Source of the DNA: a virus
Length of the DNA stretch: 28,349 nucleotides
IMG/VR virus record: IMGVR_UViG_3300033388_002791
Location: 1-28,349 of that record
Reading direction: 5' to 3' (one strand)
Part shown: positions 1,191-25,419 of the stretch, piece by piece
How the letters are laid out: each line of letters begins with the position of its first letter
How positions within the stretch are numbered: the first letter of the stretch is position 1
Translations under genes and position numbers: made by a program
The notes under the pieces: model-generated
Databases searched by the model: none
Seen by the model: only the letters and a program-made list of their open reading frames with translations
What the model was told of the DNA's origin: nothing

Positions 1191-2429
1191 ATGTCTACAA
1201 CAAGAACGTTTCAGGATATGTTAAATGAATATTTAACGTATGACCTGTTAAAAGAAGAATTTTTAAAAAGATCTTGGTTACTTCAAAATATTGAAATTGA
1301 CGAAGGTTGGAAAGGCGGAACGCTTCCAGTTCCATTTAAAGGTGCTCAAGCATCATCTCTTAAATTTGGTGGTTTAACTGCTGAAGGTGACATTGCAGAA
1401 GATAAATATGTTCGTGGTGAAGTTACTGACTATAGAGAGCTTTGGGGTACATTACTATTTAACCATAGAGATCTTTTAGAGCACGATGGTAAAGTAAAAG
1501 AGAAGTCATTCTTAAGAATCCTTCCAGATGTAATCGAAGATTATATGGAATGGATGAAAGAGCAAACTTCACTTAATATGTTAGTTGGTGCTGCAAAAGA
1601 TAAAGCTGCTGTAGATGGTACTGCTGGTGCAGGTATCCAGGTTACAAGACCAGATAGATTTAACATCAACGAGAAAGTAATCATCGATTCTGATACTCAA
1701 GCACAAGCAACTGCTTATGTTAGAACAATTGATATCAACTCTGGTGTGGTAGTATTCTACGATGCAAGAAGTGGTGGTTCGGTTTCAGATTTATCTCTTT
1801 ACACTGTTGCTGATAATACTAAATTCTACGTAGATGGTGCAATCTCTGATTCATTTACATCTCTTAAAGATTCTCTTTTAAGTGCTGCAAATGGTGGATC
1901 TGCTACTCTTTACGGACAATCTAAATTAGCTTACCCATACCTTCAATCAATCCAAGTTGATGGTTCTGCTGTAACGGCTGCCAACATTATCGAAAAGCTT
2001 TTCGATGGATTCACAAGAATTAAAACTCTTGGTAAAGGTATGCCTGATAGAATCGTAATGTCTTTCAAAAATCTTGGTTCAATTATGAAAGTTCTTGAGC
2101 AGGATAAAGGGCCTTACCATATCGATCAAAAGTCTACTAAAGTTAATGCTTATGGATGGACTGAGATCACTATTATCGGTGTTAAAGGTCAAGTTAGAGT
2201 TGTTGGTATCAATGAGATGGACGACGACTTTATCATGTACCTTGATATGAGAGCTATTAAGTTCCATTCAAATGGTATGTTCAGAAAAAGAACAGCACCA
2301 GATGGTAAGCAATACTACGAAGTAAGAACAACTGCTGGATATTTTTACCTACTAGACATGAGTCTTTATGGTGAATTGATTCTAAACAGACCATCTTACT
2401 GTGGTATCATGCACTCAATTTCTTACTAA
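1191..2429 (+). CDS. Major capsid protein (HK97-fold type)
   Basis: A 412-residue protein that follows the scaffold gene and is followed at once by a strong terminator, as is common for highly expressed capsid genes. The N-terminal 50 residues are helical. An E-loop-like region follows (around residues 40-80, with LPVPFKGAQASSLKFGGL). Residues about 85-135 look like a spine helix (HRDLLEHDG... IEDYMEWMKEQTSLNML). Residues about 145-255 form a beta-rich insert with the pattern FNINEKVIIDSD then a VVVF strand, which suggests an inserted barrel domain. The rest (260-412) resembles the A- and P-domain end of podovirus coat proteins. Family assignment is from overall pattern and position, not from a search. 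GAGG lies upstream of the ATG. Confidence 0.85.
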   Translation: MSTTRTFQDMLNEYLTYDLLKEEFLKRSWLLQNIEIDEGWKGGTLPVPFKGAQASSLKFGGLTAEGDIAEDKYVRGEVTDYRELWGTLLFNHRDLLEHDGKVKEKSFLRILPDVIEDYMEWMKEQTSLNMLVGAAKDKAAVDGTAGAGIQVTRPDRFNINEKVIIDSDTQAQATAYVRTIDINSGVVVFYDARSGGSVSDLSLYTVADNTKFYVDGAISDSFTSLKDSLLSAANGGSATLYGQSKLAYPYLQSIQVDGSAVTAANIIEKLFDGFTRIKTLGKGMPDRIVMSFKNLGSIMKVLEQDKGPYHIDQKSTKVNAYGWTEITIIGVKGQVRVVGINEMDDDFIMYLDMRAIKFHSNGMFRKRTAPDGKQYYEVRTTAGYFYLLDMSLYGELILNRPSYCGIMHSISY

Positions 2430-2811: not shown

Positions 2812-4956
2812 ATGATATTTGAACATTCAAGATTTGAAATTTGGAATCAAAGTCAGCACATGTATAGACATTCGTTGTCTGATTTCTTGTATGCCAATGG
2901 TGCTTTGCCTGGAGTCTCAAATGTTGAAGAGGCTCTTAACTATATAACTGCTGTTATGTACCCAAATTATGTTGGGACAACTCCAACTCCAGGAGATCTA
3001 CCAACAGGTGTAGACACTCCAAATCCAGGTGATACAACTCCAAATATAAATGACTATAGAGTTGTTACTGATGATGGTGATGGAAAAGCTGCTGGTTATC
3101 GTTGGGAGCAAAGAGATGGTGATGTTTCACCAAAATGGTATAAAATATTTGATGTAGACTGGAGTACCGATGGTATTTTAGCTGCGTTGATGGATATTAC
3201 TCAAGATGTTTACGTTTACCAGAAAGGTAAAACGGATTTGGACGAAAACGGAGATCCAATAACTGGGATTTTCGCTGGCCAGAGAATTTGGGGTGGAAAC
3301 CTTACTGGTCAAAATTTAACCTTAGATGCGAATAGTGCAGATGGAACTGGCTATGTTCAAACAAACAACACATTTAGACCTGTTAGTGATGACAGCTATG
3401 ATCTTGGTACTGCAACTGAAAGGTTCAGGACAGGATACATTGCCACCTCACTTCTGGTTAACGATTTCACTATTTCTTCGGGTGTTATTGAAAATAGTTC
3501 AGGACAAATAAGTTTTGCAGATGAAAATCTGATTACAACTGGAAATATTACTGGAACAAATTTAATAGCAACTGGTGGAGTTGAGTCACTGACTCTTACT
3601 GAAGCAAGTATAACTTCAAGTACAGGTGCAATCTCATTTGATGATGAAAATTTAAACGGAACTGGTAATTTAAGTTTCGCAAATGGAACTTTCTCTGGAA
3701 CTGTGGGAATCAATGCAGATTTAAGTTTATCTGCTGGATTAATCACTTCTGCTTCAGGGCAAATTTCTTTTAATGATGAAAATCTTATTACAACAGGTAA
3801 TATTACTGGTGGTATTATTACAGGTTCTCGACTTGATATCGACAACCTAAGATTAGATGGTAATACACTTTCAGTAACAGACCTGAATGGAAATTTAATT
3901 CTGAACGCTAATGGTACTGGAGTTGTTGATATCAACTCGATAATGGAAACTATTGGCCAGAACATAATTGGAAATGTTGATATCACAGGACAGTTAGATA
4001 TCGATAATTTAAGCTTGGATGCAAATACGATTTCAAGTGTTGCTGGTGGCATCACATTGAATCCATTCTCTGGAAATGTAAATATCAATGGTAATTTAGC
4101 ACCAGATGCGGATGGAACAAGAAATCTTGGAAGTTCAAGTTTAAGATTTAACAATTTATTTTTAAGTAACTCTATCCAGGATGCTGCTGATACATTTTTA
4201 ATTTCAGAGCTAATGGATTTAAGAAGTGCAAACTATAGAGATTTTGCCAGAACACAACCTGCTCAAGCTGGTGATGCTCTATTTTACGATGCTGTAAATG
4301 GTGTATGGTTAGCCTCTAATCCTGATTCAGAGATAGCCCATTCAGAATTGAGTGGCTTAACTGTAGGTGATGCTGGCCATACGCAATTTGCTTTACTGGC
4401 TGGTAGATCAGGTGGTCAAAATTTAATTGGTGGTGTCTCAGCAAGTGAAAACTTAACTCTATCAAGTACAAGTAATGCAACTAAGGGAAATATAATTCTT
4501 GAAGATACATTAATTGGCTCTGTTGATAATGCAGTTGACTTAGGTAGTTCAAGTAGTTACTTCAAGGATCTTTACCTTAAAGGTCAAGCAATAAACTTGA
4601 GACTTGAAAATTTCACAAGTGGAACTTTACCAGCTTCAAATGCTGCGAATGTTGGTAGAGTAATGTACGCAACTGATAACCAAAAAGCTTATGTTGATAC
4701 TGGATCAACAATAAAAGTTTTAGGTGTATCGAAATATGTAAATGATGAAGCGTTTGATGGTATTCAAATTTTAAAAGATATTGATGTGTCAAGTGAGATC
4801 ACTGATGCACGCAATGCGATAATTCAATTATTGGACAATTCAAACGATTTTGAGAGAATAATAGCAACAATAAAAGCGACTAGCGCAAGTAACGTTAGAG
4901 TACAAACTAACGTGCCACTTCCTGCTGGTTCTTACAGATTAATAGTCATGGAGTAA
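2812..4956 (+). CDS. Tail fibre / appendage protein with repeated beta modules
   Basis: A 714-residue protein dominated by short beta-strand repeats rich in Gly, Thr, Asn and Ser. Three copies of a phage-fibre module with a DLGSSS...F...LYL pattern occur at about residues 196-214, 437-453 and 575-592. A second repeat with ISFxDENL occurs three times between residues 226 and 333. Residues about 510-565 match a pattern seen in many fibre proteins (HSELSGLTVGD, then GGQNLIGG and LTLSST). Residues 602-637 carry a small strand module (GRVMYATDNQKAYVDTG) that recurs in neighbouring genes. A Pro/Thr-rich linker lies near residues 55-80. Such proteins form trimeric beta-structured fibres for host binding. 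The stop codon overlaps the next gene's ATG (TAATG). Confidence 0.85.
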   Translation: MIFEHSRFEIWNQSQHMYRHSLSDFLYANGALPGVSNVEEALNYITAVMYPNYVGTTPTPGDLPTGVDTPNPGDTTPNINDYRVVTDDGDGKAAGYRWEQRDGDVSPKWYKIFDVDWSTDGILAALMDITQDVYVYQKGKTDLDENGDPITGIFAGQRIWGGNLTGQNLTLDANSADGTGYVQTNNTFRPVSDDSYDLGTATERFRTGYIATSLLVNDFTISSGVIENSSGQISFADENLITTGNITGTNLIATGGVESLTLTEASITSSTGAISFDDENLNGTGNLSFANGTFSGTVGINADLSLSAGLITSASGQISFNDENLITTGNITGGIITGSRLDIDNLRLDGNTLSVTDLNGNLILNANGTGVVDINSIMETIGQNIIGNVDITGQLDIDNLSLDANTISSVAGGITLNPFSGNVNINGNLAPDADGTRNLGSSSLRFNNLFLSNSIQDAADTFLISELMDLRSANYRDFARTQPAQAGDALFYDAVNGVWLASNPDSEIAHSELSGLTVGDAGHTQFALLAGRSGGQNLIGGVSASENLTLSSTSNATKGNIILEDTLIGSVDNAVDLGSSSSYFKDLYLKGQAINLRLENFTSGTLPASNAANVGRVMYATDNQKAYVDTGSTIKVLGVSKYVNDEAFDGIQILKDIDVSSEITDARNAIIQLLDNSNDFERIIATIKATSASNVRVQTNVPLPAGSYRLIVME
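3487..3810 (+). repeat. Triplicated ~42-residue beta repeat in the fibre gene
   Basis: Three copies of a unit with the core [AG]-I/Q-SFxDENLxxTGN start at about residues 226, 267 and 311 of the fibre protein, spaced 41 and 44 residues apart. Copies 1 and 3 are closest (SGQISFxDENLITTGNITG). The DNA has diverged, so this is an old protein repeat and not a fresh duplication. Confidence 0.8.
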
Positions 4957-5420
4957 TGGTGCTGAGAAGTAATATTAAATACGAAATTGATGAAAATGGA
5001 TGCCATAACTGCACGTCACACAAGACTGATAAGTTTGGATATCCTAGAATTAATTTTAAAAGAAAAAACATGACTATGCACAGGTATGTTTATACAGTTT
5101 TAAATGGTGAAATTAAAAAAGGTTTAGTGGTTAGGCATAAATGCGATAATCCACAATGTATTAATATAAATCATCTTGAACTTGGTACTATATTAGATAA
5201 TGTTATGGATAGAAATATTCGTGACAGGACTAGTAAAGCATCAAGAACTAAAGGTGAAGTAAATGGGATGCACAAATTAAAAGAGCATCAAGTTCTTGAA
5301 ATTTTAAAGTTAAAAGGAAAACTTTCTCAATCGAAAATTGCAAAAATGTTCGGTGTGAGTCAAGTTAATATTAGCTGTATCTTTACAGGAAAGAGCTGGT
5401 CTCACTTACAGGGGGTTTAA
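4956..5420 (+). CDS. Free-standing HNH homing endonuclease
   Basis: A 154-residue protein with a classic HNH core at residues 41-90: MHRYVY, then VVRHKCDNPQC, then INHLELGT. His61, Cys63, Cys68, Asn72 and His73 are candidate metal and catalytic residues. Residues about 111-146 form a helix-turn-helix with LSQSKIAKMFGVSQVNIS, typical of the DNA-recognition tail of mobile HNH endonucleases. Such enzymes nick or cut phage DNA and spread their own gene. It is wedged between two fibre genes: its ATG overlaps the upstream stop (TAATG) and it ends one base before the next start. By eye it is AT-richer than its neighbours, consistent with later insertion. It does not split a single fibre gene, since both neighbours have sensible ends. 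Confidence 0.92.
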   Translation: MVLRSNIKYEIDENGCHNCTSHKTDKFGYPRINFKRKNMTMHRYVYTVLNGEIKKGLVVRHKCDNPQCININHLELGTILDNVMDRNIRDRTSKASRTKGEVNGMHKLKEHQVLEILKLKGKLSQSKIAKMFGVSQVNISCIFTGKSWSHLQGV

Positions 5421-13823: not shown

Positions 13824-14158
13824 TGCTTAACAAAGAAGAGTTACTAGAGATTCAAAATGGTTTAAAAGTAACCGATGATACTGATGGTGATTCAGGCCCT
13901 ATCTATACAGGTGGGCCTGATAAACCATTTGGACAAGATCTTCCAGTTGACTCTATTTATGCTCAAAACAGACCAGATGGGATTGTTGTCTGGAGAAAGT
14001 TTGGTGCAGATGTAAATGATTGGTTAGTCGATAAGAATACTCACAGAGTGGACTTTGTTGATTATGATATTAAAGTACCATCACAGAATGTTTATAATCT
14101 TAATGAGAGAGAGATAAACTGTGAACTGTATGTTGATGGTGAGGTGTATGTAATATGA
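13823..14158 (+). CDS. Small fibre-like protein sharing an N-terminal module with its neighbour
   Basis: A 111-residue protein, TAATG-coupled to the gene before it. Its first 75 residues align by eye with the N-terminus of the 12372-13823 product: LLEIQNGLKVTDDTDGDSG versus LFELELGVKITDENGDNG, then DSIYAQNRPDGIVVWRK versus GSAYFRQGTAELYLKK, each followed by a DW motif. The C-terminal 35 residues are beta-rich (YDIKVPSQNVYNLNEREI). It is probably a tail component that uses the same attachment site or fold as its neighbour. Confidence 0.68.
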   Translation: MLNKEELLEIQNGLKVTDDTDGDSGPIYTGGPDKPFGQDLPVDSIYAQNRPDGIVVWRKFGADVNDWLVDKNTHRVDFVDYDIKVPSQNVYNLNEREINCELYVDGEVYVI

Positions 14159-14751
14159 GTGATGCAACTATAAATTTACCTAAAAGAGCCACGGCTCCAG
14201 GTGCTCCAGCTTCAGGGAGATATAGAATATATGTTGACCAGAGCGATAATGAAGTTAAGTATATCGATGACCTTGGAGTGATTAGAACTTTCAAGGGTGA
14301 TCAAGGTGATCAAGGTATTCAAGGTGATCAAGGGATCCAAGGTATTCAAGGAATCCAAGGGCCTGTTGGCCCAATGAATGTTGAAGCTTTAGAAGTTCAA
14401 AATGCAAATGTTACGCTTCCAAACACAACTGCGAAAACTGTTATTTATAACACTCCTGTTAATCCATCTGCTGCTGGAAATGGTTTTTTAATTGTATCTC
14501 TTGCGTATAAGCCACATTCAGCAAACAATGATATGGAATTTGATATTAATTATAATGGATCAGTGTTAGATCCTGATTCGGCTGAAGAGGGTAAAGACTC
14601 AAATGCAGCTCAATCTCACTGGAGAACTTATGTTTTCCCAGTAACAATTCCTGCTGGTTCATTTAGTTTTGATTTAAGGTTTTCAAAAGAAATTACTGGT
14701 GGAACAGCACAACTTAAAGGTTATACGGCCATATTGGTGAGGTATTCATAA
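14155..14751 (+). CDS. Collagen-like fibre protein
   Basis: A 198-residue protein that starts on an ATGA overlap with GAGGTG upstream. Residues 10-45 hold a small strand module (GRYRIYVDQSDNEVKYIDDLG). Residues 48-74 are nine Gly-X-Y triplets (GDQ, GIQ, GPV, GPM types), a collagen-like triple-helix stalk common in phage fibres. Residues about 75-198 are a beta-sandwich head with VFPVTIPAGSFSFDLRFSKE. The design is anchor, stalk, head. It is very likely trimeric and exposed on the virion. Confidence 0.82.
   Translation: MSDATINLPKRATAPGAPASGRYRIYVDQSDNEVKYIDDLGVIRTFKGDQGDQGIQGDQGIQGIQGIQGPVGPMNVEALEVQNANVTLPNTTAKTVIYNTPVNPSAAGNGFLIVSLAYKPHSANNDMEFDINYNGSVLDPDSAEEGKDSNAAQSHWRTYVFPVTIPAGSFSFDLRFSKEITGGTAQLKGYTAILVRYS
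14296..14376 (+). repeat. Gly-X-Y collagen-like triplet repeat
   Basis: Nine consecutive nine-base units encode GDQ/GIQ/GPV/GPM, with GGTGATCAAG and GGTATTCAAG-type DNA repeats. Such tracts vary in length by slippage. Confidence 0.88.
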
Positions 14752-21375: not shown

Positions 21376-21565
21376 TCTTAGCTTCCTTTTTGTTTAAAAA
21401 TTTTGATAGTTCTTTTTTAGTTTCTTTTCCTAGATAGATTCCACAAACATCTTGCCCATTTGAAAAAGATAAATAATCAAGCATTTGACCGCTTGTGTGA
21501 TGCTTTACCTTACTTTCAGTGACAATAAGTTTACCATCAAGAGTTTTGATTTCTTCCTTACTCAT
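21350..21565 (-). CDS. Small hypothetical protein between exonuclease and DUF1617-like gene
   Basis: A 71-residue basic protein. The start overlaps the exonuclease stop (ATGA) and has AGGAG nine bases upstream; its end overlaps the next gene by 26 bases. A beta-rich first half (LDGKLIVTESKVKHHTSG) is followed by a Lys-rich helix. No family recognised. Tight coupling suggests it works with the exonuclease. Confidence 0.62.
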   Translation of the reverse strand: MSKEEIKTLDGKLIVTESKVKHHTSGQMLDYLSFSNGQDVCGIYLGKETKKELSKFLNKKEAKNGSSNTTK

Positions 21566-22449
21566 AGCTTAATGCTCCTATATGTTGTCGATGCCTTAAC
21601 ATAGCCAGAAGTATCAAGCTCTGGCAACTTTTCAGCAACTATTTTTTTATAATCCACTGATCCTTTACGTGTAATTTCTTGAATTTTAACTCCACGACAA
21701 ATAGATCTTGGGTGATTTATGGCCTCGTGAGTTTTAATTTCATCTTCAAGAGATTTTATAGAAATAAGATCTTCAGCAATTTTTTCCTTTAAAGATTTTA
21801 GTTTGTCTATTTTGTCACCAAGATCCTTACTGCGAACATTCTTCCAATCTCTATCAGTTAGAGGTGGCTCTTTTTTTGTCTGAACAAGCTTCCAAAATTT
21901 TGTAACCTCTTTAAGCATTCCTTTTATAAACTCAATATCAGGATCAACTTTTATTATAATGATTTTATTTTCTTTTTCATTATAAGCAACATAGTCAGCA
22001 TACTGATCACCAGTTACATACAGTTGCCACTGAACTTGAGCATAATAATAATCTGGAAGTTTTCCATCTTTCGCTAGCTCCCACTTTTCACCAGCACCAA
22101 CAAACTTCATCTCAACACAAATTCTTTTTTCTGGATCACGACCATCAAGACTTGCTCTGTGCTCTGGCTTATCTTCTCTCATAACTAAACATGGAGCGGC
22201 TGTATTGCCAGACTGTATTTCATACATTGCTCTTATTTTAGGTTCAAGCCTGTGACCTTTGTCAGTAATAAAATTACTAGCATTATCAGTATTTCTTTTT
22301 CCAAGTTTTTGCTCCCATAACTCATATGCTGTTTTCCATGGTGAGATACCCATGATGATAGCGACTTCAGATCCACCAATACCTTCAGCTCTCCATTCGT
22401 GCCAGGCAGATGATCCTTGTTCTAAATCAGATTCGTTTATTGATTTCAT
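21562..22449 (-). CDS. YqaJ-type viral recombinase exonuclease (lambda Exo fold)
   Basis: The ATG at 22449 is chosen because AAGGAG lies eight bases upstream (22464-22459); a longer start at 22473 lacks a ribosome site. The 295-residue protein has the YqaJ signature near the N-terminus (SSAWHEWRAEGIGGSEVAII, then MGISPWKTAYELW) and nuclease residues in order: Glu69 in HRLEP, Asp102 in SLDG, Glu113-x-Lys115 in VEMK, and Gln138/Gln141 in YAQVQWQLY. This is the PD-(D/E)XK arrangement of lambda-type 5'-3' exonucleases that make 3' single-stranded tails for an annealase. The C-terminal 90 residues are a helical extension. Its likely partner, a Sak4-like protein, is encoded divergently nearby. Confidence 0.9.
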   Translation of the reverse strand: MKSINESDLEQGSSAWHEWRAEGIGGSEVAIIMGISPWKTAYELWEQKLGKRNTDNASNFITDKGHRLEPKIRAMYEIQSGNTAAPCLVMREDKPEHRASLDGRDPEKRICVEMKFVGAGEKWELAKDGKLPDYYYAQVQWQLYVTGDQYADYVAYNEKENKIIIIKVDPDIEFIKGMLKEVTKFWKLVQTKKEPPLTDRDWKNVRSKDLGDKIDKLKSLKEKIAEDLISIKSLEDEIKTHEAINHPRSICRGVKIQEITRKGSVDYKKIVAEKLPELDTSGYVKASTTYRSIKL

Positions 22450-22458
22450 ATTGAATTT

Positions 22459-22500
22459 CTCCTTGACGAACATAATTGAACTTTGTTACTCATTTGTCAA
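22459..22500 (-). promoter_or_regulatory. Candidate sigma70 promoter and operator for the minus operon
   Basis: On the minus strand TTGACA (22500-22495) is followed after 17 bases by AATTAT (22477-22472, 4/6 match to TATAAT), just ahead of the exonuclease ribosome site. On the plus strand TTGACG (22463-22468) with a poor GTTACT 16 bases on could drive the HTH gene. The two -35 boxes are arms of an imperfect inverted repeat (TTGACgAA / TTtGTCAA), a possible operator for the adjacent HTH protein. Confidence 0.55.
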
Positions 22501-22519: not shown

Positions 22520-22711
22520 ATGTTACGAAAATTAGAACGCTACGTTAAAAACGAGCAGCAAGGATTCCTAAAGGTCGCAGCTTATTGTGGTTACGATGAT
22601 GTAGCTCCAGTAAAAAATTGGATTAGAAGAAAATCTATTCCAAAACACATGGAAACGAGGTTGAAACCTCTATTAACAGGAGAGATTAATGTCACAATTT
22701 CAATTAAGTAA
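22520..22711 (+). CDS. Small Cro-like HTH regulator
   Basis: The ATG at 22520 has AAGGA six bases upstream and gives 63 residues. An open frame reaches back to 22259 but crosses the divergent promoter region and the exonuclease gene, so that extension is rejected. Residues about 15-42 read as a helix-turn-helix: FLKVAAYCGYDDVAPVKNWI followed by RRKSIPKHMETRL, like short Cro-type or YdaS-like proteins that have a W-I-R-x-x-x-IP end. It is the first gene of the early operon and probably binds the divergent promoter just upstream. Confidence 0.72.
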   Translation: MLRKLERYVKNEQQGFLKVAAYCGYDDVAPVKNWIRRKSIPKHMETRLKPLLTGEINVTISIK

Positions 22712-23579
22712 GGGTAAAAAACAAGAGCCAGAATTTATGGTTATTTACGGTGTTGAAGGAATTGGTAAAACTACATTTGCTACTGATTCAGGAAGCCCAG
22801 TAATAATCGATGTTGAAGGTGGTTCTGCTGAGATTGACACAACAAGGATTGAAGCAAAGGATTTAAAAACTCTTGATTCAGTGATTGCAGCAATCAAGCA
22901 AGTTCAAGCAGAAGAAAGCTTTGAAACAATTGTAATTGATTCTTTATCTAAGGTTGAAGAATTAATTTGGAATGCAACATGCAAAAGAAAATCAGTAAAT
23001 GGAAAAACTTATAAGTCGATTGAAGATTTTGGTTACAAGCAAGGGTATATCTTTTGTTTAGATGAATGGGATTTATTTCTAAAAGCATGTGAAGAGGCAA
23101 GGGAGAATGGTAAAAATGTAATTCTTATTGGCCATAGTAAAACAAAAAGATTTGATGATCCAACTCTTGTTGAAGGATACACAAGATATGAAATTGATAT
23201 CCATGAAAAAGCTTCAGCAAGAATAAGAAAGTATGTTAAAGCAATTCTTTTTGCTAACTACAAGACTCACGTTAAAGATGGAAAAGGTTTAGATTCTGGT
23301 GAAAGATTTATCTATACCGAAAGACGACCAGGGCATGATGCTAAAAATAGATATGATCTTCCATATAGCATCATTCTTAACTGGAAAGCCTACCAAGAAA
23401 CTAAGAAAAATTCTGTTGTTACTGCTGAGTCTCTGATTAGACAAATTAACGGAATGATAACTGAGGTTGCTGATGAGACTACAAGATTAAAAATTGAAGA
23501 GTTGATTCAAACTGAAACTAATATTGGAAAGCTTAGATCTTACCTTAGTAGGGTTGAGGAAATAATAACAAACCAATAA
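22689..23579 (+). CDS. Sak4-like RecA-fold recombinase / AAA ATPase (PF13479 type)
   Basis: A 296-residue protein with AGGAGA before the ATG and a 23-base overlap with the HTH gene. Walker A is GVEGIGKTT (residues 21-29) and Walker B is ETIVIDS (about 79-85). It has NVILIGHSK (about 143-151) and a strand with KAILFANY, in the order typical of Sak4 / AAA_24 proteins. Sak4 proteins are short RecA/Rad51-core ATPases that anneal single strands, often helped by a phage SSB, which is encoded two genes downstream here. The C-terminal 55 residues are a helical tail. With the divergent YqaJ nuclease this makes a two-part recombination system. Confidence 0.85.
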   Translation: MSQFQLSKGKKQEPEFMVIYGVEGIGKTTFATDSGSPVIIDVEGGSAEIDTTRIEAKDLKTLDSVIAAIKQVQAEESFETIVIDSLSKVEELIWNATCKRKSVNGKTYKSIEDFGYKQGYIFCLDEWDLFLKACEEARENGKNVILIGHSKTKRFDDPTLVEGYTRYEIDIHEKASARIRKYVKAILFANYKTHVKDGKGLDSGERFIYTERRPGHDAKNRYDLPYSIILNWKAYQETKKNSVVTAESLIRQINGMITEVADETTRLKIEELIQTETNIGKLRSYLSRVEEIITNQ

Positions 23580-23595
23580 TCTTAAAGGAGAAATT

Positions 23596-23799
23596 ATGGT
23601 TACTTTAACAATGAAACAAGCTGAGACTTTTAAAGCACTTTTAACTAAGGCAAACAAAGGAACTCACTGGTTAGACAAGAAAATGGAAAAGGCATCAAAA
23701 GTTACTGTTGCTGCTGCTCCAAAAAAAGTAGTTAAGAAAAAAGTTGCTAAAGCAGCTAAGAAAGTTGTTGCTAAGAAAGCGACTAAAGGTAAAAAATAA
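23596..23799 (+). CDS. Lysine/alanine-rich histone-tail-like small protein
   Basis: A 67-residue protein with AAAGGAG upstream. Residues 1-38 form a soluble helix (MKQAETFKALLTKANKG). Residues 39-67 are Lys/Ala/Val repeats (PKKVVKKKVAKAAKKVV) resembling the tails of histone H1-like and AlgP/H1-type bacterial DNA-binding proteins. The charge suggests nucleic-acid binding. It lies between the Sak4-like gene and the SSB gene in one operon with a TAATG link to the SSB, so a role in DNA recombination or DNA compaction is plausible. The low-complexity tail makes homology hard to judge. Confidence 0.72.
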   Translation: MVTLTMKQAETFKALLTKANKGTHWLDKKMEKASKVTVAAAPKKVVKKKVAKAAKKVVAKKATKGKK

Positions 23800-24341
23800 T
23801 GAGCATCGAGCCAGGTCGTTATAAGGCGACAATCGAAGATTACGGTATTAAAACTGTTGGAGATAAAAAAACTCCACAAATGAATATTAAATTTAAAACA
23901 GTTGAGAGTGGGTTGGCAGTTTATTTTCAAAACTTTCTAACGGCTGGAACTACTGGATCTGAGTATTTCACAAATCTAATGAATACACTTGTTGAAACTG
24001 GAGCATTAAGAACAAAAAAGTTTACTGATATTGCAAAAGGTGTTCAGGGTGGAGCTTTTGATACAAGCGTTGAATTAGAAGTAGTTTGTGACTACGAGAA
24101 AAATGATGATGGATCTATTAAGACTGATGCTAATGGTAAGTCTTATGTAAAGGTAAACTTCATTAACAATCCAGACAAATCTGGCATGAAAGGTGTTCTT
24201 GCAGAAGAAGAGGCTATAACTGTATTAGGCGGTTTAAATCTTGATGCTCATATCCTTCAAGCAGAACAAAGAACTGGTGCAAGCATAGATAGCAAGCCAG
24301 CCCATACTGGTAATTTTTCAGACGATAACATTCCGTTTTGA
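23799..24341 (+). CDS. Phage single-stranded DNA-binding protein with SSB tip
   Basis: A 180-residue protein. The N-terminal part (IEPGRYKATIEDYGIKT, then PQMNIKFKTVESG) matches the strand pattern of phage OB-fold-like SSB proteins of the DUF669 type. The protein ends in an acidic tip, SDDNIPF, almost identical to the DDDIPF tip by which bacterial SSBs recruit partners. The region between is long and partly disordered. It is TAATG-coupled to the lysine-rich gene. It should bind ssDNA and help the Sak4-like protein. Confidence 0.85.
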   Translation: MSIEPGRYKATIEDYGIKTVGDKKTPQMNIKFKTVESGLAVYFQNFLTAGTTGSEYFTNLMNTLVETGALRTKKFTDIAKGVQGGAFDTSVELEVVCDYEKNDDGSIKTDANGKSYVKVNFINNPDKSGMKGVLAEEEAITVLGGLNLDAHILQAEQRTGASIDSKPAHTGNFSDDNIPF

Positions 24342-24344
24342 TCT

Positions 24345-24797
24345 ATGAAAAAATGTAAAAGATGTAAATCTTCCCTGCCATTAAGTGAGTTTCATAGAAA
24401 CAAAAACAAACCTGATGGCAGGTTTTCTATATGTAAAAAATGTAGAGCTGTAGATACTGCTAAGTACAGAGATGAAAACAGAGCAAAACTAAGAGCTAAG
24501 GATAGAGAGCGTGGAAAGCTTGAAAAGAGAAAAGCAGACTTAAAAATTTCTGCTAGTAAAATAGATAGAAAGTCAGCGGCAATTAGGTATAGAGAGAAAA
24601 ACCCTAAAAAACACGCTGCTCATCAAGCTGTTGCATGTGCAAAACATAGGGGTAAATTAATACCAATGCCTTGTGAGGTTTGTGGAAATAAAGAGGTTGA
24701 GGCTCATCATGATGATTATAATAAGAAACTTGATGTTAGATGGCTATGTAGAGAGCACCACCTAGAATGGCATGTTAACAATGAACCGATCTTATAA
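24345..24797 (+). CDS. HNH endonuclease with N-terminal zinc finger
   Basis: A 150-residue protein. Residues 1-35 hold a CxxC...CxxC zinc site (C4, C7, C30, C33). A long basic helical linker follows (40-90). Residues 108-145 carry the HNH-like end: MPCEVCGNKEVEAHHDDYNK then LDVRWLCREHHLEWH, with C110/C113, H121-H122, C135 and H138/H139/H143. Such proteins are common mobile or accessory phage nucleases. No ribosome site precedes the ATG (GTTTTGATCT), and the DnaQ gene starts inside its 3' end. It may be an insertion in the operon. Confidence 0.85.
   Translation: MKKCKRCKSSLPLSEFHRNKNKPDGRFSICKKCRAVDTAKYRDENRAKLRAKDRERGKLEKRKADLKISASKIDRKSAAIRYREKNPKKHAAHQAVACAKHRGKLIPMPCEVCGNKEVEAHHDDYNKKLDVRWLCREHHLEWHVNNEPIL
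24374..24426 (+). promoter_or_regulatory. Two mutually exclusive hairpins in the HNH coding start region
   Basis: Stem 1 pairs 24374-24383 (CCTGCCATTA) with 24413-24422 (TGATGGCAGG), 10 bp with one G-T. Stem 2 pairs 24408-24414 (AAACCTG) with 24419-24425 (CAGGTTT), 7 bp, followed by a short T-rich run. The two share bases 24413-24414 and 24419-24422, so only one can form. This resembles an attenuator but could be chance within coding sequence. Confidence 0.35.
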
Positions 24798-25419
24798 AGA
24801 TGAAATACTTTCATATTTACCAGAAAGTTCTGAGTTATCAGGCAATGAGCATATTATGATTTGTGATTGTGAAACCACTGGATTTAGTGAGAAACAACAC
24901 GATATGATTACTTTTTCAGCCATGATAGTAGATTTCAATTTAGATATAAAGGATAAGGTGACTGTATATGCTAGACCTAAAAAAGAAAGATGGACAATCG
25001 GAGCGCAAAAAGTGCACAAATTCTCACTTGCAGAAGCACTTACTTTCCCAGATCCTAGAAAAACAGCAATCCAGCTCTTACATTTTCTCAAGCCATTCAA
25101 AACTGATGATAATCGCCCAATACTCTTCGTATCTCACGATACTTCTGGTTTTGATTCTAGGTTTTTTAAAAGCTTTTTTATGAATAACATGCTTATTGAA
25201 AGCTACTGGAAAGTCTTTAAAGATGAGTACAAATTATCAACAATCTCTATGGCCAGAAGAATGGGAATTGAAGATAACAAACTAGATACATGGGCCAATA
25301 GACTTAATTTAGAACTTAATCACCACGAGGCTGAGTCAGATAGAAATGCTTGCTTTGAGGTATTTAAACATATACTGGAGAATACAAGTGTCCAATCCGA
25401 ACTGGAAATTGAAAAGTAG
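24772..25419 (+). CDS. DnaQ-like 3'-5' exonuclease (DEDDh)
   Basis: A 215-residue protein (206-212 if the ATG at 24781 is used; neither has a good ribosome site, and coupling to the overlapping HNH gene is likely). DEDDh motifs: Exo I MICDCETTGF (D32, E34), Exo II SHDTSGFDSRFF (D128 or D123), Exo III HHEAESDRNACFEVF (H185, D190). These are the metal-binding and general-base residues of DnaQ-type proofreading and repair exonucleases. No polymerase is attached. The enzyme could trim recombination ends. Confidence 0.9.
   Translation: MLTMNRSYKDEILSYLPESSELSGNEHIMICDCETTGFSEKQHDMITFSAMIVDFNLDIKDKVTVYARPKKERWTIGAQKVHKFSLAEALTFPDPRKTAIQLLHFLKPFKTDDNRPILFVSHDTSGFDSRFFKSFFMNNMLIESYWKVFKDEYKLSTISMARRMGIEDNKLDTWANRLNLELNHHEAESDRNACFEVFKHILENTSVQSELEIEK

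Follow-up and report, generated by a model that had tools for sequence, protein, structure and literature searches.

A small lysine- and alanine-rich orphan protein encoded between the Sak4-like and SSB-like genes of a phage

In the IMG/VR virus record IMGVR_UViG_3300033388_002791, a small gene for a highly basic protein separates the gene for a Sak4-like annealing ATPase from that for a single-strand DNA-binding (SSB)-like protein. This raises the question of whether the basic protein belongs to the recombination machinery of the phage or is an unrelated gene that lies among its components. We analysed the whole stretch of 28,349 nucleotides (the window) and compared it with related and distant loci. 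The features of the locus are listed below.

21562-22473, minus strand: YqaJ/RecE-like exonuclease gene, divergent from the Sak4 operon (PF09588, E 5.9e-24; phrog_434, E 8e-57)
22520-22711, plus strand: small open reading frame (ORF) that overlaps the start of the Sak4 gene and corresponds in position to gp11 (HTH) of Bdellovibrio phage phi1422 and to 4805-5023 in L002, a locus of the nearest relative; no significant family match in Pfam or PHROGs
22689-23579, plus strand: Sak4-like single-strand annealing ATPase (phrog_124, E 2e-45; Pfam AAA_24, E 8e-44)
23583-23595, plus strand: likely ribosome-binding site of the 67-residue ORF (AAAGGAG and spacer), read directly from the sequence
23596-23799, plus strand: lysine/alanine-rich ORFan of 67 residues, net charge +18 (ORF and translation; no family or homologue)
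23701-23796, plus strand: its basic tail by composition, codons 36-67 (32 residues), charge +13, no Asp or Glu
23799-24341, plus strand: SSB-like protein with C-terminus NFSDDNIPF (SSB-labelled aligned set, structural model, weak OB-fold matches)
24345-24797, plus strand: HNH-type endonuclease (phrog_2340, E 3.5e-35)
24772-25419, plus strand: exonuclease of the RNase_T family (PF00929, E 7.8e-10)

The 67-residue gene and its neighbors

The earlier note had described a 67-residue protein with a lysine/alanine-rich tail at 23596-23799 of the plus strand, placed between the Sak4-like and SSB-like genes and coupled to the latter through TAATG. The coordinates, length, sequence, gene order and overlap are all as it described. 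The product of the ORF is MVTLTMKQAETFKALLTKANKGTHWLDKKMEKASKVTVAAAPKKVVKKKVAKAAKKVVAKKATKGKK. The ORF starts 16 nt after the end of the Sak4-like gene and its stop codon overlaps the start of the SSB-like gene in the motif TAATG, while an AAAGG sequence lies about 10 nt 5' of the SSB-like start, within the 67-residue ORF. Lysine makes up 31% of the protein, compared with 6.5% in 18 larger genes of the window, and the ORF has the highest lysine content of the 73 that are 60 aa or longer in the six frames of the window. Among 3220 ORFs of this size obtained from 100 first-order Markov simulations, none reached 28% lysine. The possibility that the ORF is a split or read-through tail of Sak4 or SSB was ruled out for the window, as its frame differs from those of both neighbors.

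Charge is unevenly distributed in the protein, with +5 in residues 1-35 and +13 in the tail formed by residues 36-67, VTVAAAPKKVVKKKVAKAAKKVVAKKATKGKK. The codons of the tail are mixed (AAA 10 and AAG 3; GCT 6, GCA 1 and GCG 1; GTT 6 and GTA 1) and their choice is close to the usual usage of the phage. The only direct repeats in it are two imperfect ones, each in two copies (24 nt at 79% and 19 nt at 74%), and it is thus not a simple product of recent slippage. A single-sequence AlphaFold model of low confidence (mean pLDDT 64.1, pTM 0.28) predicts a helix at residues 43-64; the N-terminal 35 or so residues form a short part that is perhaps helical. On the basis of the ribosome-binding site, the TAATG overlap, the mixed codons and a lysine content unmatched in simulation, we take the ORF as a real gene, with its translation predicted.

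The Sak4-family identity of the upstream gene is secure on its profile matches. The SSB-like gene itself matched no family in PHROGs or NCBIfam, and its Pfam matches were weak and off-target. Among the 29 SSB-like proteins aligned with it, 15 match phrog_6015 and the other 14 phrog_378, two families that carry the label single strand DNA binding protein. A structural model based on this 29-sequence alignment (mean pLDDT 82.9) had no match in the PDB at E <=0.001; among the weaker matches (best E 0.015) were OB-fold chains of SSB, RPA and PriB, together with ribosomal proteins. The protein would represent a divergent SSB branch that is unrecognised by family libraries and whose aligned set carries SSB labels. 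Its tip, DDNIPF, is of the acidic ...PF type by direct reading. Genes for a DNA methyltransferase and a helicase were also detected in the neighborhood of the Sak4 and SSB genes by Pfam and PHROGs profile searches.

Homologues and the Sak4-SSB junction in other phages

Searches for homologues of the 67-residue protein were negative throughout. In viral contigs and genome contigs, 106 and 566 stretches respectively matched the search pattern and none was confirmed. No homologue was found by tblastn in phages (with the whole protein and with residues 1-35) or in plasmids, nor among PDB sequences, nor in 77 distinct records searched whole (sets of 50 and 30), a search that recovered the window's own record as positive control at E 2.4e-35. 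Curated family models, including those of H1-like and Hc1/Hc2 proteins, gave no match in Pfam (E up to 1) or NCBIfam (E up to 10), in searches whose bias filters penalise low-complexity matches. The sole PHROGs match, phrog_353 (labelled ‘toxin’, E 0.36), was judged to reflect composition. A loose motif, HW(L/F)(D/E)xKM(E/K), occurred at 15 loci in viral contigs, and none of the 15 translations resembled the protein beyond the motif. As a result of the viral, genome, phage, plasmid and PDB searches, the protein is classed as an ORFan, with the caution that distant relatives may be missed given that low-complexity filtering limits tail matches and residues 1-35 are short. The roles proposed in the earlier note, namely coating DNA, bridging SSB to DNA or marking recombination sites, consequently gain no comparative support. 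A search of genome contigs with an alignment of the Sak4 pair returned no relative and hence no host.

The nearest relative found is IMGVR 3300002231_000545 (38,350 bases; loci L002 and L091). Identity between the two phages is 59% for Sak4, 59% for the helicase, 39-44% for the SSB-like protein and 87% for a protein termed capsid-like from the place and size of its gene. In the relative, the SSB gene starts within 2 nt of the Sak4 stop and the exonuclease gene follows directly after SSB. The 67-residue protein has no match in this whole record at E up to 1. Likewise, the HNH gene at 24345-24797 has no match in L002 or L091 and is missing from the SSB-exonuclease junction of the relative. Compared with its nearest relative, the SSB gene of the window is therefore flanked by two additions, the 67-residue ORF and the HNH gene.

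The capsid-like protein of the window (1191-2429) is the one that is 87% identical to its counterpart in L091; for most recombination genes and the remaining structural genes, identity is 26-66% or no match exists in the stretches compared, an uneven divergence suggesting mosaicism. A 154-aa ORF at 4956-5420, between two large structural genes, resembles by eye a free-standing HNH homing-type endonuclease and has no match in L091 or L002. A 198-aa protein at 14155-14751 carries what appears by eye to be a collagen-like GDQGDQGIQG repeat.

Sak4 and SSB are also adjacent in most of the more distant loci with a recognised SSB. In Bdellovibrio phage phi1422, the SSB gene starts 7 nt past the Sak4 stop, with no gene of the 67-residue type between. 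Sak4 junctions were counted in 89 loci including the window; SSB was recognised in 65 and not in 22, and in two Sak4 runs off the contig. The gap between Sak4 and SSB is at most 92 nt in 59 of the 65 loci with a recognised SSB, most of them distant, with the qualification that the SSB model was refined by iteration over these same loci, some of which are near-duplicates. Larger gaps occur in six loci (L066, L064, L056, the window, L005 and L083), and the window is the only one of these with a lysine-rich ORF in the junction. Small ORFs that are not lysine-rich fill the junctions of L064, L056 and L066, and two larger genes lie within those of L005 and L083.

Conservation of the gene in the same slot in close relatives, the check that the earlier note had set, is thus contradicted by its absence from the nearest relative and by the tight junctions in 59 of 65 loci. 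Since relatives lack the gene, the 67-residue protein is not, as judged from gene content, part of the core recombination machinery or a conserved component of the Sak4-SSB module. The earlier description of composition, slot and coupling stands; the suggestion of membership in a recombination unit is weakened by the relatives without the gene.

Basic tails and Sak4-SSB modules in known systems

Bacterial histone H1-like proteins, such as Hc1 and Hc2 of Chlamydia and AlgP of Pseudomonas, have very basic tails rich in Lys, Ala and Val (Pro). The tail of the 67-residue protein is similarly rich in Lys, Ala and Val, with a charge of +13 over 32 residues that include no acidic residue. In contrast to these proteins, it belongs to a short, phage-encoded protein, has no pentamer repeat array and lacks a Pfam or NCBIfam match. 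The H1-type tail makes nucleic-acid binding plausible. In a full-text literature search with most subscription journals outside its coverage, no title or displayed abstract among the papers listed described a protein with a Lys/Ala tail encoded in an annealase/SSB operon of a phage; the earlier description of such an arrangement as unusual is fair.

A second basic protein lies beside an SSB-like gene in phi1422. This protein, gp08 (L003 6538-6828), has 96 aa and a Lys/Ala/Pro tail, and tblastn matches to it are confined to two phi1422 records. The operons of the two phages are of the same kind, with a divergent RecE-like gene, an HTH ORF (in the window, its positional counterpart), Sak4, SSB and a basic-tailed protein beside SSB. 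However, gp08 is encoded directly after SSB rather than before it and has a different N-terminal part. Common descent of the two proteins was rejected, as they do not align and 142 of 500 shuffles reach their local score; the resemblance, at the level of sequence, is compositional only. Lys/Ala-rich tails are rare: in 156 loci with 13213 ORFs of 30 aa or longer, with ORFs of up to 200 aa scored and a threshold chosen after seeing the sequence, four distinct proteins have them (those of the window, phi1422 gp08, L100 and L107). Two of the four are beside SSB, a clustering that is suggestive but weak; the window was the starting point of the count. The protein of L107 (8093-8488, 131 aa) has a Lys/Ala/Val-rich tail at its N-terminus (MAKVAKKVTKKVAKKATAK...) and comes from a record with a related capsid-like protein.

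The closest functional comparison is with phage HK620. There, Sak4 annealing is stimulated by the phage SSB via a six-residue acidic tip, which is needed for most of the stimulation, and the two proteins are described as working without a cationic small protein (PMC5928155). As in HK620, the gene after Sak4 in the window encodes an SSB-like protein whose last residues read as an acidic ...PF tip; in the window, exonuclease genes are close by. The HK620 module is given as sak4, ssb, abc2 and hkaM (PMC5928155), whereas the window has a gene for a cationic protein between Sak4 and SSB.

Candidate roles and rival explanations

On balance, and with modest confidence, we favor a real, translated, phage-specific accessory gene at the Sak4/SSB junction that this lineage either acquired or alone retained and that encodes a cationic nucleic-acid-binding, optional modifier. 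The protein is probably a DNA- or RNA-binding accessory protein, as judged from its composition. Its charge would allow the tail to bind the backbone of nucleic acids irrespective of their sequence. The TAATG overlap points to translation matched with that of SSB, and a protein made together with SSB may sit near SSB-coated phage DNA, where neutralisation of charge could help compaction or strand annealing. Alternatively, the protein may touch the acidic SSB tip used by Sak4-type annealases: SSB ends in DDNIPF and the HK620 tip is similar, so a basic neighbor would have an obvious acidic partner. We infer DNA binding, help with annealing and contact with the SSB tip as candidate activities. 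The protein would be an optional modifier and not a required component, given the absence of the gene from L002 and L091, from the Sak4-SSB junction of phi1422 and from the 59 tight junctions. Against an accessory role, the protein has no homologue, conserved slot, domain match or confident structure, and RNA, polyphosphate or membranes would be no less likely ligands of its tail than DNA. The Sak4 and SSB of HK620, moreover, worked in the absence of any such protein (PMC5928155). A more specific proposal, which we regard as unlikely, is a lineage-specific annealing cofactor: a free-standing H1-like peptide co-translated with SSB would dock on the SSB tip, condense SSB-coated strands, or both, thereby tuning Sak4 annealing, and phages of this kind would repeatedly and independently gain cationic helpers beside SSB, with phi1422 gp08 as a second, unrelated case.

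The main rival to an accessory role is that an unrelated small insertion (a ‘moron’) landed in the junction, encoding an early protein that acts on host RNA, the ribosome, the nucleoid or a defence target and has no role in recombination. We consider this possible, though tentatively so. The two additions that flank SSB, one of them an HNH endonuclease gene, are in line with it, as are the other small ORFs in L064, L056 and L066, which indicate that small unrelated genes land at this site; the tight coupling to SSB and a basic charge suited to a nucleic-acid setting speak against it without being decisive. It is quite improbable that the main role of the ORF is translational coupling that sets the level of SSB, with a dispensable peptide. 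The overlap and the internal AAAGG speak for such a function, but coupling does not call for a peptide of 67 residues with varied codons and an extreme positive charge, and SSB directly follows Sak4 in most other loci. Even the low-complexity tail and the lack of homologues leave a spurious or low-complexity artefact very improbable, since no simulated ORF was as lysine-rich, codon choice is mixed, and both the ribosome-binding site and the overlap are consistent with a gene.

If the protein does not help Sak4 and SSB, its gene joins the other accessory orphans known from gene junctions and is a warning about assigning function from composition and neighborhood alone. If it does, it would serve as an example of H1-like tails in phage recombination, and as a small add-on that could raise the efficiency of annealing or recombineering.
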